Assembly: GCA_947646655.1 (NCBI GenBank)
Contig: CANSHI010000007.1
Span: forward strand, 1 to 64,000
Source of the DNA: an uncultured bacterium
GTDB lineage: Bacteria; Bacillota_I; Bacilli_A; RF39; UBA660
Length of the DNA stretch: 64,000 bases
Direction of reading: 5' to 3'
The notes beneath the pieces are model-generated. The model saw only the letters and a list, made by a program, of their open reading frames with translations. It was not told where the DNA came from and searched no databases. Shown piece after piece: positions 13,120-19,616 of the stretch (positions within the stretch are counted from its first letter, which is position 1; every line of letters starts with the position of its first letter). A program made the position numbers and the translations under genes.

Positions 13120-14388
13120 TTAAGCTCTGTGTCCTCCAATTTTTTTATTGCGTTCTATAGCGGTAGAATCTTTTAGCAAATTAGAGGCTTTGATGATCGA
13201 ATTTTTTCCGTATTTGCTTTTTATTTCATCGACAGCGTGATTGATATTATCTTTTTTTACTTTTTCAGTGTATTCTTCAAATAAGTTTAACTGTTCTGTC
13301 GTGTTATTTTCTAGTCCGCCTAAGCTAATGCTGACTTTTCTAATCGGATAGTCTTCATAAAACTTGTTAAACATTGTCATACAAAGATTATATATTTCAG
13401 TTATATCATTTGTAGAAGCTGGTATTTTTCGTGAATGGTAAAAGCCTCCTTTAAAAGCGCGTGAATAACCTATGCCAAAACTAATGACGTTACACTTTTT
13501 CCTATTTTTACGGAGGCGGGCGGTTAAGACTTCACACATTTCTTTGATTATAATTCCGATGTTTTCGTCATTGTAATCTTTAAAAAGTACTTGACTGTGT
13601 CCAAATGATTTATCTTTGGGGTGATAGTTATTAAAGTCTCCAATTTTAGCAAGATCGATTCCATTCGCATGATTCCAAAGTTCTTCTCCCATTACACCAA
13701 ATTTATTTTTAAGTTTTTTAATATCATAATTGGCTAGATCGCCTATCGTATTAATGCCCATTAAGTTAAAATTTCGTTCCATTCGTTTTCCTATTCCCCA
13801 AAATTCACTTAAGGGAGTAATAGGCCACATTTTAGTTTTTACGTCGTCATAAGTCCATTTGGCTATGTTGTCTTTAGTATGTTTGGCTTCTATATCCATA
13901 GCAATTTTGGCAATCAACATATTGGGGCCAATACCAGCAGCACTTAGAAGTCCTAATCGCGATTTAATAATATCCATAATTTTTTTAGTCAGTTCATAAT
14001 CACTCATATTATACATTTTCAAATATTTTGTAACGTCTTAAAAAGCTTCATCGATAGAGTAGACATGAATGTCTTCTTTACTTACAAATTCTTGAAAAAT
14101 GGATATGACTTCGTGGCTGTACTGTACGTACAAACTCATCCTGGGAGGAACAGTTATGTATTTGATATGAGGAGGAATCGCATAAATTCTTGTACGGGAG
14201 CCAACACCTAAAGACTTCATATAGGGAGTGACCGCTAGGGTGATGGCACCGTTTCGATTGGGTTCTGCAACTACTAAAGGAGTAGTGTAGGGATCTAGGC
14301 CTCTTTCAACACATTCACAAGTGGCATAGAATGATTTCATATCGATGACAACAATATTTCTTTTGGGCAATTTATTATAATCGATCAT
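13120..14388 (-). pseudogene. Y-family DNA polymerase (UvrX/ImpB type) interrupted by one in-frame stop
   Basis: Read from 14388, the frame gives NIVVIDMKSFYATCECVERG (palm Asp), then HVYSIDEAF, then a TAA codon at 14040-14038. The same frame continues with DVTKYL and a full-length remainder including GIGPNMLIAKIAMD, the thumb and the little finger. The family motif is SIDEaFLDVT, so TAA stands where a leucine TTA is expected: one T-to-A change. Both halves otherwise look intact (about 422 codons). Either this is a very recent loss of translesion polymerase, or a rare readthrough, or a sequencing or population variant. A strong promoter and AGGGGAGG RBS are kept. Confidence 0.88.
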
Positions 14389-14495: not shown

Positions 14496-14524
14496 TTGCA
14501 AATAATTATGATAAATAGTATAAT
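14496..14524 (+). promoter_or_regulatory. Sigma-A promoter for the ABC-F operon
   Basis: TTGCAA and TATAAT are separated by 17 bp. Transcription would start near 14531, giving a leader of about 125 nt before the ABC-F start codon. Confidence 0.85.
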
Positions 14525-14588
14525 TGGTACATAAGTTGGTATGAAAAGATTAAAATTAAGTTTAAACTTTATCTTTGGAGGTGTGAAC

Positions 14589-14612
14589 ATGAGAAATTAT
14601 GCTTTAAGTTAG
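14589..14612 (+). CDS. Regulatory leader peptide (7 residues)
   Basis: ATG to TAG encodes MRNYALS. GGAGG at 14577-14581 sits 7 nt upstream, an ideal RBS. The second to fifth codons contain the first of four alternating complementary segments (TTATGC, 14597-14602). A ribosome paused here would cover that segment. By analogy with erm and msr leader peptides, I infer a ribosome-stalling peptide that senses an antibiotic. Confidence 0.75.
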   Translation: MRNYALS

Positions 14613-14654
14613 GCATAAACTTTAAATTATGCCAAAAATTATATGGAGGCATAA
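14597..14654 (+). promoter_or_regulatory. Translational attenuator of the ABC-F gene
   Basis: Four segments alternate: A TTATGC (14597-14602, inside the leader peptide), B GGCATAA (14612-14618), C TTATGCC (14627-14633) and D GGCATAA (14648-14654). A:B and C:D can form together. In that state C:D traps the last two bases of the GGAGG RBS (14645-14649) and the spacer up to one base before the ABC-F ATG. If a ribosome stalls on the leader peptide and masks A, B is free to pair with C (7 bp, 8-nt loop), releasing D and the RBS. This is the classical ermC-type logic. The segment complementarity is seen directly; the drug-sensing role is inferred. Confidence 0.82.
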
Positions 14655-14655
14655 A

Positions 14656-16161
14656 ATGTTAGAAATTAAAAATTTAAGTATCGAAGTAAACGATAAATAT
14701 ATTGTTAAAAATTTAAACTTAGTAGTAACAGAAGGTAGTAAGCTAGCAATTATTGGGGAGGAAGGCAATGGAAAATCGACTTTGCTTAAAGTTATTGCCC
14801 AAGTATGCGATTACGCTACAACTACAGGAGCAATAAAATATGGGGATAATCGAATATCTTATATGGAGCAAGTGTTAGATATTCGATCTAATAATAAAAA
14901 AGTTTTCGATTATATATTTGCCGATTGGGAAGATTATTATGCAAAGATAACCGACTTTTACAAATTTATAGGGGAAATGGATTTCGATGAGGATTTGCTC
15001 TCGCAAAAGATTTTTACTTTATCTGGGGGAGAAAAAATTAAGATGATGATTTTAAAAATACTTCTAGATCAAGGGGATGTAATTCTTTTAGATGAGCCTA
15101 CGAATGATTTAGATATCGAGACTTTAAAATGGTTAGAAAACTTTATAGTTAAATGTTCTAAGCCCGTTATATACGTTTCACATGATGAAGAGTTATTATC
15201 TAATACAGCGAATATGATCTTACATTTAGAGCAGTTGAATGATAAAACAGATTGTCAATACACATTAGAAAAGTGTGGATATGACGAGTATGTAAATTTT
15301 AGAATGCGGAAATTAAACCATTTAAAACAAGTTGCTAATAATGAAAAGAGGGAGTTTACTCGTGCTCAAGAGAAGCTTAAGCAAGTTATGAATAAGGTAG
15401 AGTATCAACAAAACACTATTTCTCGAAAAGATCCTCATGGGGCACGGCTACTAAAAAAGAAAATGCACAGCTTGAAATCTCAGGAGAAGCGACTTCAAAA
15501 TATGGAACTTACAGAAGTTCCCGATGTAGAAGAAGCGATAGCCTTTTATTTTAACGAAGTAAAGTTACCTAGTATGAAGTTCGTGTTAAATTTAGAAATA
15601 CCTGTGCTTAAAGTAGATAATAAAATACTTGCTAAAAATATTAAGTTAAATGTTATGAGAGATGAACATGTCGGTATAATAGGTAAAAATGGTGCTGGGA
15701 AGTCGAGCTTAATAAAAATTATATATGATGAATTAAGTCAACGAGAGGGTATTAATCTAGGTTATATGCCCCAAAATTATGAAGATATTTTAAACAATTA
15801 TGAGTATGTTTTAGATTTTATTACCGATAAAAACAAAGAAAATATTACAAAAGCGAGAACTTTACTAGGCTCATTAAATTTTACTCCTTCGGAAGTGGTT
15901 GGTAAAATAGAAGATTTAAGTAATGGCACGAAGGCTAAGTTAATACTGGCTAGTCTCGTTTTAAGAGAATGTAACTGTTTATTATTGGATGAACCAACTA
16001 GAAATGTTTCTCCTCTTTCGAATCCAGTAATTAGGGGAGTGTTGAAAAATTTTAAAGGCCCTATTATAAGTGTGAGTCATGATAGGAAGTATTTAAATGA
16101 AGTAGTCGATCGGATTTATAAATTGTCTGATAAGGGATTAGAGGAAGTGAATATGGAATGA
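14656..16161 (+). CDS. ABC-F ATPase, probable ribosome-protection type
   Basis: A 501-residue protein with two ATP-binding domains and no membrane segment, the ABC-F layout. Domain 1 has Walker A GEEGNGKST, signature LSGGEKIKM and Walker B VILLDEPTNDLD. Domain 2 has GKNGAGKSS, LSNGTKAKL and CLLLDEPTRN. The long basic helical linker, with RKDPHGARLLKKKMHS near residues 255-270, is of the antibiotic-resistance ABC-F kind that reaches into the ribosomal E site. The ATG at 14656 is chosen because GGAGG lies 6 nt upstream; an ATG at 14629 falls inside the attenuator. Expression is probably controlled by that attenuator. The next gene overlaps by 4 bp. Confidence 0.87.
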   Translation: MLEIKNLSIEVNDKYIVKNLNLVVTEGSKLAIIGEEGNGKSTLLKVIAQVCDYATTTGAIKYGDNRISYMEQVLDIRSNNKKVFDYIFADWEDYYAKITDFYKFIGEMDFDEDLLSQKIFTLSGGEKIKMMILKILLDQGDVILLDEPTNDLDIETLKWLENFIVKCSKPVIYVSHDEELLSNTANMILHLEQLNDKTDCQYTLEKCGYDEYVNFRMRKLNHLKQVANNEKREFTRAQEKLKQVMNKVEYQQNTISRKDPHGARLLKKKMHSLKSQEKRLQNMELTEVPDVEEAIAFYFNEVKLPSMKFVLNLEIPVLKVDNKILAKNIKLNVMRDEHVGIIGKNGAGKSSLIKIIYDELSQREGINLGYMPQNYEDILNNYEYVLDFITDKNKENITKARTLLGSLNFTPSEVVGKIEDLSNGTKAKLILASLVLRECNCLLLDEPTRNVSPLSNPVIRGVLKNFKGPIISVSHDRKYLNEVVDRIYKLSDKGLEEVNME

Positions 16162-16781
16162 AAAAACCTAAGATAAATGCAGTTTTTGAGAAAAAATTCG
16201 ACTATGTTGAAGTCGATGCGACAGTCAGTAATGCACTTTTTAATAAAAGTATTGCTGAGACAGGAGAGCTCACAGGTGTAACTTTTACGGAATGTATATT
16301 TAAAAATATCGATTTTTCTAGTATGAAAATAAAAGATTTAGATTTTATAGACTGTATTTTTGAAAATTGTGACTTTTCTAATAAAAAATTTAATAAACGT
16401 CTACTTAGAAGAGTAGAATTTAAAAATTGTAAGTTTTTAGGAACTGCTTTTATTGAAGCTAATCTCGAAGATGTTTTGTTTTTGGACTGTAATTTGAGCT
16501 ACGGGAATTTGCACACAGTGCATATTAGAAATTCGGAGTTTAAAGAGTGTTGTTGTAGGGAAGTATTTTTTACCGAAGCAAATTTAAGCAGTGTTCTTTT
16601 CGATAAAGTGTTATTCGATGGTGCTGAATTTATGGAGGCAACATTATTAGAGGTGGATATTTCGACATCTGATATAAAAGGGGCTAGATTTGATCAAAAA
16701 AGTGTAAAGGGTCTCATCATCGAGCCTTTTCAAGCTGTTTCTTTTGCAGTGATTTTTGGAATCGATATAAAAGATATGTAG
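16158..16781 (+). CDS. Pentapeptide-repeat protein, Qnr/McbG-like
   Basis: A 207-residue protein built of A(D/N)LxF-type pentapeptides. Examples are FKNIDF, FENCDF, FIEANLEDVLF, FTEANLSSVLF and FDGAEF. They are interrupted once near residues 70-80, as in Qnr and McbG proteins that form right-handed quadrilateral beta-helices mimicking DNA. Those proteins protect gyrase and topoisomerase IV from quinolones or microcin B17. The start overlaps the ABC-F stop (ATGA), so it should be co-induced with that gene. Whether it protects gyrase here is inferred from family and context. Confidence 0.8.
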   Translation: MKKPKINAVFEKKFDYVEVDATVSNALFNKSIAETGELTGVTFTECIFKNIDFSSMKIKDLDFIDCIFENCDFSNKKFNKRLLRRVEFKNCKFLGTAFIEANLEDVLFLDCNLSYGNLHTVHIRNSEFKECCCREVFFTEANLSSVLFDKVLFDGAEFMEATLLEVDISTSDIKGARFDQKSVKGLIIEPFQAVSFAVIFGIDIKDM

Positions 16782-16937: not shown

Positions 16938-18431
16938 ATGAATAAAGCAATGAATAAAGTAATAAAATCGCACATAGTTTTAGCATGTATTTCGTTTGTA
17001 GCAGTTGCCTTAATAGCAACCGGAGTCACTTATTCCCTGTTTCAAGTAGATAAAGAGAATACGACAAATCAAAATATAACGATAGGTAATTTAAGTGCTA
17101 AGTTAAATAGTATAGAAGGGGCCGTAGTGTTAAACGACCTTTATCCGACTTTATCTACTGAGCTAACAATGGACGATAAAATATATAATTTTTCCATTTT
17201 AAATGATGGAGATTATGATGTGCAATATGAAATATACTTGAAAGATGCTACAGATAGTTTATTACAGAGTTCTAGTGATTATACAGAATATAAAAGATTT
17301 AATAAAGATTATTATAAGTATATAAACTTTATATTTGATGAAGGAGCTACTAAAAATTTAGATAGTACGAAAAGAGAAGACAAGTTCATTATGTTAAAGG
17401 GAACATTAAAACCAGGAGAGAGCTTTGAACATAAAATACAGTTTTTTGTAGATAAGGGAGAGACTACTGAAAATGGAGCACCTAACGATTTGGCAGGGTC
17501 AGTATTGTCTCTAGATATTTATATGGATGCAACGGCTTTAAGCGGAGAAGAATTAGTGAATGCTTTATTAGAAAAAGCAAATGGGGTAGCAATAACTGAC
17601 TATGAAACAGGAAATAAGGGAGAAATGTACACATTTAGTCATGATGCTACGGCACAAACAGAAGCGTTAACGGATTATCGTTATATAGGGAATATGCCTA
17701 ATAATTATATAGAATTTAATGCAGAAATGTGGAGAATAATAGGAGTATTTACTGTTGAAGGTGAGAATGGCGAAAAAGAACAGAGAGTCAAAATAATTAG
17801 GGAAGAACCGATTGGAGATTTAGCATGGAACGACAATGACTCAAATGAATGGCCTAGCAGTAGCTTATATGCAGTTTTAAATACAGGAGATTATTATAAT
17901 AGAAGAGGAATTTATAATAGTAATGGGTTAACAGGACTTGCTAGGGATCAAATTGCAGCTTCTAAGTGGTATTTAGGTGGAAACAATAATTCTTCGTTAG
18001 ATGGTTCAGCTATTTATAATTTTGAACGTGGAAATACAGTATCTTCAGGACATAGTACAAATACGGTGGAAAAAGTAGGATTACTGTATCCTAGCGATTA
18101 TATTTATACATATGCGTATGGAGTAGATAATACTTGTTTTCAAGACGGATCTAATTGCAGTAGCGGAACACCAAGTAATAGCTGGCTGTCATCCACACAA
18201 AGTTTATGGACTATTACACCTAATTCTTCTAATATGACCACTTTTGGGAAAGGCAACAATCATAATCTCGATCATACGTACAATATATTAGGTAATCTTT
18301 TTGTTAAGCCTACTACATATCTTAGATCCGATATAAGAATTTTATCAGGTACAGGTGAGGAAAGTAATCCTTATAAGTTGTGCATTGATGTTGCAGATAG
18401 TCAGTTGGGTGGAGAGAGTCAACTTCAATAA
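16938..18431 (+). CDS. Exported surface protein with TasA-like N-terminus and a DUF6273-like C-terminal domain
   Basis: A 497-residue protein. Residues 1-35 are a signal/anchor. TYSLFQVDKENTTNQNITIGNL follows, in two parts recalling SipW substrates (an A/T-Y-x-x-F motif then a GNL strand). Residues 40-200 form a beta-rich camelysin/TasA-like module. From about 210 a second domain begins (ITDYETGNKGEMYTFSH, YRYIGNMPNNYIEFN, MWRIIGVF) and ends with TYLRSDIRILSGTGEESNPY. The same domain makes up most of the next protein. It resembles DUF6273-type surface domains. The function is unknown. The SipW genes of this window are 13 kb away. Confidence 0.6.
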   Translation: MNKAMNKVIKSHIVLACISFVAVALIATGVTYSLFQVDKENTTNQNITIGNLSAKLNSIEGAVVLNDLYPTLSTELTMDDKIYNFSILNDGDYDVQYEIYLKDATDSLLQSSSDYTEYKRFNKDYYKYINFIFDEGATKNLDSTKREDKFIMLKGTLKPGESFEHKIQFFVDKGETTENGAPNDLAGSVLSLDIYMDATALSGEELVNALLEKANGVAITDYETGNKGEMYTFSHDATAQTEALTDYRYIGNMPNNYIEFNAEMWRIIGVFTVEGENGEKEQRVKIIREEPIGDLAWNDNDSNEWPSSSLYAVLNTGDYYNRRGIYNSNGLTGLARDQIAASKWYLGGNNNSSLDGSAIYNFERGNTVSSGHSTNTVEKVGLLYPSDYIYTYAYGVDNTCFQDGSNCSSGTPSNSWLSSTQSLWTITPNSSNMTTFGKGNNHNLDHTYNILGNLFVKPTTYLRSDIRILSGTGEESNPYKLCIDVADSQLGGESQLQ

Positions 18432-18476
18432 TTGCAGTTTTTTAATTTGAAACTTAATGTAAAGGTGGACTTAGTT

Positions 18477-19616
18477 ATGAAAAAAGTGGCTTTAAGAAGT
18501 AAGATATTATTATTAGTACTTTTACCAATAATAATAGTAATTTTTGTGATCGCAAATTGTCGATCAAAGAACTATCGAAATATAGAGGATAATTATGCAC
18601 ATAAGGATAATTTAGCAATATATGTTGAAGATGAAACAGGAAAGTTTATACAGAGTGAATCAATTAAATTTCCTACTGAAGGCTATATATTAGATTTAGA
18701 AAACAGTGTGTGCGAAAATGGGGAAGAATTAACTCAAGATATAGAAACAAAGAAAATTAGTTTAAGTTTAAATCATAAAACAAAATGTAGTTTGTATTTT
18801 AAAAAAGAAGCTGAATTATCAAATGTTGAAATCCTATTAGCAAAAGCAAATTCTGAAAATATAACGGATCACGAATCAGGTAATTATAAAGAAATGTATG
18901 CTTTTAGACACGAAGCTACTGCTCAAACCGAAGCATTGATAGATTACCGATATATTGGTGAAAAACCTAATAATTATATTACTTTTAATGATGAACTTTG
19001 GAGAATAATAGGAGTGTTTACAGTAGAAGGCGAAAAAGGAGTAAAGGAGCAAAGAATAAAGATAATAAGGGAAAAATCTATCGGAAATTTAGCATGGGAT
19101 TCAAATAATATTAATGAATGGCCAACATCAAGCTTAGTGACTTTATTAAATGAGGGAGATTACTATAAAAAGAGTGGAGATTATAATTTAATTGGATTAA
19201 CAGAAAAAGCTAAAACTCAAATTGCATTAACCAACTGGTATTTAGGTGGTTCTAAAGATATTTTGCATCCATCACAAACTTTTTATAATTTAGAACGTGG
19301 AAATACAGTATATAATGAAAGAAGCACTAATATGATTGCCAAAATAGGGTTGATGTATCCAAGTGATTATCTATATTCTTATCCAGATGTAATTGATACA
19401 ACAAGCTGGCTTTTTAATTATGCTTTTCAGTGGACCATTACACCACAATCTTTGTATCCTTCTATTGCATTTTATATACATACTAGTCATTCTATTCAAA
19501 ATGCTAATGTTTCTAGTAGTAGTAATATTGGCGTTCGTCCTTGTGTTTATCTTCGATCAAATATTGAAATAATATCAGGAATTGGTACAGAAAGTGATCC
19601 ATATATTTTAAAATAA
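18477..19616 (+). CDS. Membrane-anchored surface protein with the same DUF6273-like domain
   Basis: The ATG at 18477 is preferred (AAAGGTGG upstream), giving about 379 residues. Residues 6-24 form an N-terminal membrane segment. A short InlB-like beta region with two cysteines follows. From about residue 120 the domain matches the preceding protein closely: ITDHESGNYKEMYAFRHEA, WRIIGVFTVEGEKG, RGNTVYNERSTN, and a final GVRPCVYLRSNIEIISG. The TasA-like module of the upstream gene is missing, so this is a partial paralogue. Both genes read in the same direction 45 bp apart and are probably co-transcribed. Confidence 0.6.
   Translation: MKKVALRSKILLLVLLPIIIVIFVIANCRSKNYRNIEDNYAHKDNLAIYVEDETGKFIQSESIKFPTEGYILDLENSVCENGEELTQDIETKKISLSLNHKTKCSLYFKKEAELSNVEILLAKANSENITDHESGNYKEMYAFRHEATAQTEALIDYRYIGEKPNNYITFNDELWRIIGVFTVEGEKGVKEQRIKIIREKSIGNLAWDSNNINEWPTSSLVTLLNEGDYYKKSGDYNLIGLTEKAKTQIALTNWYLGGSKDILHPSQTFYNLERGNTVYNERSTNMIAKIGLMYPSDYLYSYPDVIDTTSWLFNYAFQWTITPQSLYPSIAFYIHTSHSIQNANVSSSSNIGVRPCVYLRSNIEIISGIGTESDPYILK

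Follow-up and report, generated by a model that had tools for sequence, protein, structure and literature searches.

The mRNA leader of an ABC-F ATPase gene from a draft bacterial genome (1.43 Mb, 23 contigs) contains a conserved RNA element, confirmed as real by sequence comparison among relatives, in which three conserved segments (B, C and D) and a short pseudoknot helix probably form a translational attenuator that lacks a terminator and senses ribosomes on a very short leader ORF. We put the probability of this reading at roughly 0.6. The whole sensor and switch would fit within about 80 nt. Many uncultured gut Bacilli carry this element, for which Rfam has no family. It was found in a stretch of DNA of 64,000 nt, here called the window, for which a sequence-only reading had proposed an erm-type attenuator built from four alternating complementary segments, A to D. 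The core of that proposal, a leader-ORF translational attenuator of the ABC-F gene, is supported by the conservation of B, C and D and by the lack of a terminator in all 70 elements collected.

Layout of the leader region and its surroundings

The leader features described here all lie on the + strand of the window. A putative promoter, TTGCAA-17-TATAAT (14496–14524; 10 of 12 matches in a consensus scan), is located upstream of a predicted transcript start at about 14529–14531, which would imply a 5′ leader of approximately 125 nt. The leader ORF encodes MRNYALS (14589–14612, with the ATG at 14589–14591 and the stop codon TAG at 14610–14612) and is preceded by the Shine–Dalgarno (SD) sequence GGAGGTG (14577–14583), of which GAGGTG is kept in nearly all relatives. 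Segment A (TTATGC, 14597–14602), which is largely peculiar to the window genome, can be extended to TTATGCTT (14597–14604), with AGGCATAA at 14611–14618 as its possible pairing partner. Segment B (GGCATAA, 14612–14618) is a copy of D and a partner of C. It is flanked by AAGU (14606–14609) and, directly 3′ of B, ACUU (14619–14622), which are identified from conservation among relatives as the two strands of a proposed pseudoknot helix, S1. Segment C (TTATGCC, 14627–14633) is an anti-SD sequence able to pair with either B or D, and segment D (GGCATAA, 14648–14654) overlaps the ABC-F SD (GGAGG, 14645–14649) by its final two bases and runs into the spacer before the ATG at 14656. The window thus contains the well-spaced leader ORF and all four complementary segments that had been claimed, with A inside the ORF and D over the end of the ABC-F SD and its spacer.

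A triple of the B/C/D kind, defined as a 7-mer with at least three G/C whose reverse complement occurs on both sides of it within 40 nt, arose in 6 of 5,000 dinucleotide shuffles of the region, and by the same 7-mer criterion the triple is unique within the whole 64 kb. The folding energy of the whole leader region is ordinary (z −0.66), hence the evidence lies in the arrangement of the segments and their conservation, not in stability. The window leader contains no intrinsic terminator and matches no Rfam family at gathering score.

The ABC-F gene (14656–16161) encodes 501 amino acids with two ABC_tran domains. Its best profile match is NCBIfam ribo_prot_ABC_F (E 4e-91), with a score of 306 bits that is below the curated cut-off of 380, and the NCBIfam models for Vga, Sal, Msr, CplR, Lsa and OptrA all remain far below their curated cut-offs. 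Among solved relatives the best is chain 8buu_9, which bears the label ExpZ; 8BUU is the deposited model of the paper on VmlR2, Ard1 and CplR itself (PMC10201436). From the protein sequence we infer a divergent ribosome-protection member with a probable role in antibiotic resistance.

Several neighbouring genes were also observed. A pentapeptide-repeat gene with distant Qnr/MfpA/HalA-type matches (16158–16781) overlaps the ABC-F stop codon with its start (ATGA), an arrangement that would be possible for a two-target protection operon; a functional link between the two genes was rejected, as the pairing is not conserved in 19 other loci read. On the − strand, a Y-family DNA polymerase gene (14388–13120) is interrupted near 14038 by one in-frame stop codon; the ORFs on either side of it share a reading frame and correspond to the two portions of a single protein. 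ORFs 16938–18431 and 18432–19616 are adjacent, mutually similar and without a Pfam match, and share the segment ATAQTEAL.DYRYIG..PNNYI.FN.E.WRIIGVFTVEGE.

Conservation and distribution of the element

An alignment of 43 elements shows almost no change in B, C and D, while leader codons and spacers vary; the element sequences are related by vertical inheritance, so this and all other counts given here are inflated and do not represent independent events. Across the 43 sequences B:C is 98.7% paired, compared with 22–46% when the partner is slid, and C:D is also 98.7% paired, compared with 16–67%. Both sequestration of the ABC-F ribosome-binding site (RBS) by C:D and B:C as the alternative pairing, as proposed from the window alone, are therefore supported by relatives. 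The two helices change jointly in L139 and L141 (GGTATAA / TTATACC / GGTATA), and G-U intermediates are seen in B (L103, L182 and L193) and in D (L130). This covariation is thin, as there is hardly any variation in the helices and the triple change comes from a single genus.

Conservation does not extend to segment A. A and B can form at least 5 bp in 8 of 70 elements, where chance would give 2.2, but not in the other 62 leaders, most relatives having no equivalent at all; 6 bp is reached only in the window and one other leader. With A unconserved and the leader peptide variable, the erm-type four-segment scheme is not supported as the general design. In the window, A:B comprises 8 bp including one G-U pair and may add a local layer beyond the general design of the element.

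Leaders are 5–7 codons long in 66 of 70 elements and encode 61 different peptides. The second residue is Arg in 58 of the 70 (codons AGA, CGA and CGC), and residues 3 and 4 are often I/T/N/M followed by L; the published consensus of the cplR uORF is MR[I/M] (PMC10201436). Judged from these sequences, the leader does not encode a specific arrest peptide; only Met-Arg recurs widely. B sits just past the leader stop or at it, and its first base is 22–27 nt from A(+1) of the leader in 67 of 70 elements (26 nt in L154), and the position of the stop codon correlates at −0.58 with the stop-to-B gap (70 points, including a mis-parsed one for L154). Since the gap shifts opposite to the stop, the distance from start codon to B is the better conserved one.

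The S1 strands occur as AAGT:ACTT in 54 of 70 elements, and four pairs are possible in 58 of 70. In the shuffling control, a helix of at least 4 bp was counted in 59 of 70, compared with 10.8 ± 3.0 of 70 once the order of the 8 nt preceding B had been randomized. S1 positions are 87% paired, compared with at most 62% when slid, and the covariation score exceeds that of all 500 shuffles, with G-U and compensatory variants including GAGT:ACTT, AAGT:ATTT, AAGT:GCTT and TAGT:GCTA. Where B:C is cut to 6 bp (L019), ACTT still adjoins B. AAGT usually overlaps the leader stop codon (TAAGT), with an offset from the stop of −10 to +3, and these several registers rule out a stop-codon context. The distance from the leader start is narrow: S1 starts 17–20 nt from A(+1) in all 58 clean cases, which include leaders of 5, 6, 7 and 9 codons. 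Ribosomes at start codons give toeprints at +16 (PMC9226507), which places the start of the 5′ strand of S1 one to four bases past the edge of a start-arrested ribosome. S1 crosses B:C and would complete a candidate H-type pseudoknot with L1 of 1–2 nt, S2 (B:C) of 6–8 bp (usually 7) and, in most elements, L2 of 0–1 nt (usually 0) and L3 of 2–8 nt (usually 3–5). S1 is absent in 12 of 70 elements, mostly divergent members, some of which have a longer B:C. Neither this helix nor its spacing from the leader start was part of the sequence-only reading.

The element was found at 12 contig loci with an ABC-F protein 54–61% identical to that of the window, and relatives appear in the records as uncultured Bacilli, Tenericutes or Bacillales. 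Among 386 genomes sampled from the family, 59 contain a close ABC-F and 55 contain the element (covariance model R1). A class-wide sample gave the element in 5 of 395 genomes, one of them outside the family, and an order-wide sample gave further copies, again from the same family. All copies inspected precede the orthologous ABC-F gene or its fragment, and each of six additional copies checked singly is upstream of an ABC-F start. One copy from another family (G657) is identical in element and ABC-F start to that of G084, which suggests misbinning or recent transfer. Mobile spread of the element was rejected: no ABC-F match was found in plasmids at E 1e-60, the exact B–C core is absent from the viral contigs searched, and the G657 copy is identical to that of G084.

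In a gene tree of 95 ABC-F proteins, all 33 element bearers fall in one supported group of 35, and the members without the element (L090 and L110) look like losses. Two ABC-F genes of the family (L121 and L140) keep an MR leader and have lost B and C, and represent decayed elements. The Erysipelotrichaceae neighbours L022 and L023 do not have the element; L023 has the leader MRING and a terminator. More generally, of 65 homologues that fall outside the element group, 38 carry a terminator-like hairpin within the last 110 nt, and an MRx-type uORF is present in some. These terminators and uORFs suggest that a uORF with a terminator may be the ancestral design, for which the RBS switch may have been substituted later in the element group.

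Terminator-like hairpins were also observed in other positions. In L010, L011, L012, L021 and L132 such a hairpin and a T run lie directly upstream of the leader SD, where they may mark the end of the gene before it or add a further layer. In homologues from Brevibacillus, Lysinibacillus and Paenibacillus (L047, L052, L055, L057, L059, L065 and L089) a conserved terminator-like hairpin is followed by a mini-ORF of 3–4 codons (MNN, MNK and similar) about 50 nt before the ABC-F start. The presence of the same switch in these homologues was rejected, as they have the MNN/MNK mini-ORFs but no B/C/D, and theirs is a different short-leader design in culturable species.

Proposed mechanism and alternative explanations

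Without drug, ribosomes would run through the leader, pause at its stop codon and cover AAGU and B. With B masked, C would pair with D and the ABC-F RBS would be hidden. Arrest by a drug at or near the leader start codon would leave the 3′ end of the leader empty, and the free AAGU:ACUU and B:C could then fold into the H-type pseudoknot, in which C is occupied, D is free and ABC-F can be made. In the window genome, A may also hold B while the leader carries no ribosome. By analogy, peptidyl-transferase drugs (pleuromutilins, lincosamides and streptogramin A) would be the most likely to induce, given that the leader peptide is unconserved and that lincosamides, pleuromutilins and streptogramin A arrest ribosomes at the start codons of ABC-F uORFs (PMC12421871). 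The more specific proposal that the pseudoknot is a sensor of start-codon arrest, foldable only with a ribosome on the first codon and melted or blocked by elongating ribosomes, is tentative, and we rate it at somewhat below an even chance. Such a sensor would read starting without moving, whatever the peptide, and would need neither a terminator nor a fourth RNA segment to open the RBS.

In nested folding, a ribosome at the leader stop brings C:D near 1.0 in almost all elements; for the window the values are 1.0 for C:D with the ribosome at the stop and 0.97 for B:C with the ribosome at the start, which agrees with the proposed switch. Mean energies are −7.6 kcal/mol for C:D compared with −6.3 kcal/mol for B:C, and a crude estimate for the pseudoknot is −5.6. 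B:C and C:D are nearly iso-energetic in most relatives, with C:D usually slightly favoured. Hence, the ON state upon early stalling is not predicted by equilibrium for most members, and with states so close in energy, kinetics or extra stabilization has to be assumed. The ON step would rely on the order of folding, in which B:C is transcribed ahead of C:D, on the pseudoknot, or on a contact made by the arrested ribosome. Thermodynamics was rejected as a criterion for the polarity of the switch for the same closeness in energy, and transcription attenuation was rejected because neither the window leader nor any of the 70 elements contains a terminator.

Four other explanations were weighed. In a classical erm-type four-segment attenuator, A:B and C:D would be the default and a stalled ribosome covering A would free B to pair with C and open the RBS. 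The window itself argues for this, as A:B competes with B:C there (0.54 in free RNA) and masking of A by a start-stalled ribosome raises B:C from 0.46 to 0.97, and so do the 6-bp A of one other leader and the excess of A segments over chance. However, most leaders lack A whereas B, C and D hardly vary, and the AAGT/ACTT helix would be left without a role, which makes this an unlikely account of the element. A macrolide-type nascent-chain sensor, in which MR and a hydrophobic residue arrest the drug-bound ribosome at codon 3–4, would keep the RNA switch unchanged. It agrees with the prevalence of Arg at residue 2 and the frequent residues 3 and 4, and arrest at codon 3 (edge at about +22) would leave B, mostly at +22 to +27, free. 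The same arrest would nevertheless cover S1, which starts at +17 to +20; the residues past the second vary widely, and the cplR uORF, which is also MR[I/M], responds to start-arresting drugs (PMC10201436), so we regard this version as improbable.

That there is no switch, with leader and hairpins fixing the expression level through decoy initiation, reinitiation or a constitutive RBS hairpin, would be consistent with the close static energies of both states. It is very improbable given that B, which is outside the RBS and most leader ORFs, is nearly invariant and complementary to C, and that its position and spacing from the leader start are conserved. A pseudoknot riboswitch that binds a small molecule or protein, with the RBS hidden and the leader ORF incidental, has in its favour a compact H-type pseudoknot by the RBS that in outline resembles small riboswitches, but is scarcely credible: its loops L1 and L3 vary and offer no conserved unpaired residues for a pocket, no Rfam family matches, and it is the leader SD, ATG and Met-Arg that are conserved. 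If the ribosome-sensing attenuator is right, a start-codon-arrest signal would be readable without an arrest peptide, a compact drug-responsive RBS switch would be at hand for reporters, and ungrown gut bacteria would have inducible resistance, probably to pleuromutilins, lincosamides and streptogramin A.

Comparison with known systems

Published ABC-F attenuators mostly act by premature termination and have longer leaders. Control through uORFs and stalling at start codons has precedents in vmlR, cplR and are5sc (PMC9226507, PMC10201436, PMC12421871). The cplR leader of Clostridioides difficile (ARE1 ABC-F) resembles the element in its short Met-Arg uORF (MR[I/M]) upstream of ABC-F and in an anti-SD segment that hides the ABC-F SD; translational attenuation alone is enough for repression of cplR, and loss of the uORF start codon leaves it OFF (PMC10201436). 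It differs by an intrinsic terminator, by a leader of 212 nt with a uORF of three codons, and by a 5′ hairpin that sequesters this uORF (PMC10201436), whereas the element has no terminator, mostly 5–7 codons, B after the leader stop and a proposed pseudoknot. In vmlR of Bacillus subtilis, drugs arrest ribosomes at the start codon of a minimal uORF, as proposed for the element, and a hairpin (SL-4) sequesters the SD, as C:D would in the element, but the read-out is an anti-antiterminator/antiterminator/terminator system with NusG pausing, and the uORF is MIN (PMC9226507). Measured against this type, the element has the short uORF with its SD and the anti-SD segment but not the terminator.

Attenuators of the erm type (ermC; PMC10219788) likewise combine a leader ORF with alternative RBS hairpins and no terminator, but depend on specific arrest peptides and have segment 1 in the leader, whereas A is unconserved in the element and the peptide is variable. 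The alternative B:C and C:D hairpins of this type are found here; a conserved A and a specific arrest peptide are not. The window copy alone could work as an erm-type four-segment attenuator, but the family does not fit that design. In trp-type attenuators, segment 2 is covered once the ribosome has reached the leader stop, which lets 3:4 form, and is freed by an earlier stall. This logic of a masked segment would be common to both systems, although trp-type attenuators read charged tRNA through a terminator and the element is proposed to read drug through an RBS.

The LEU element of Actinobacteria also combines a leader peptide region, a conserved candidate pseudoknot and an alternative RBS hairpin, but there leucine codons pair with the leuA SD, gene and sequence are unrelated, and ribosome attenuation was considered unlikely (PMC1262725). 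No description of a pseudoknot-based or three-segment ABC-F attenuator was found in the literature searched, which covers the field in part. By analogy, the element would work like the cplR, vmlR and are5sc attenuators, but with a different switch topology and without a terminator.
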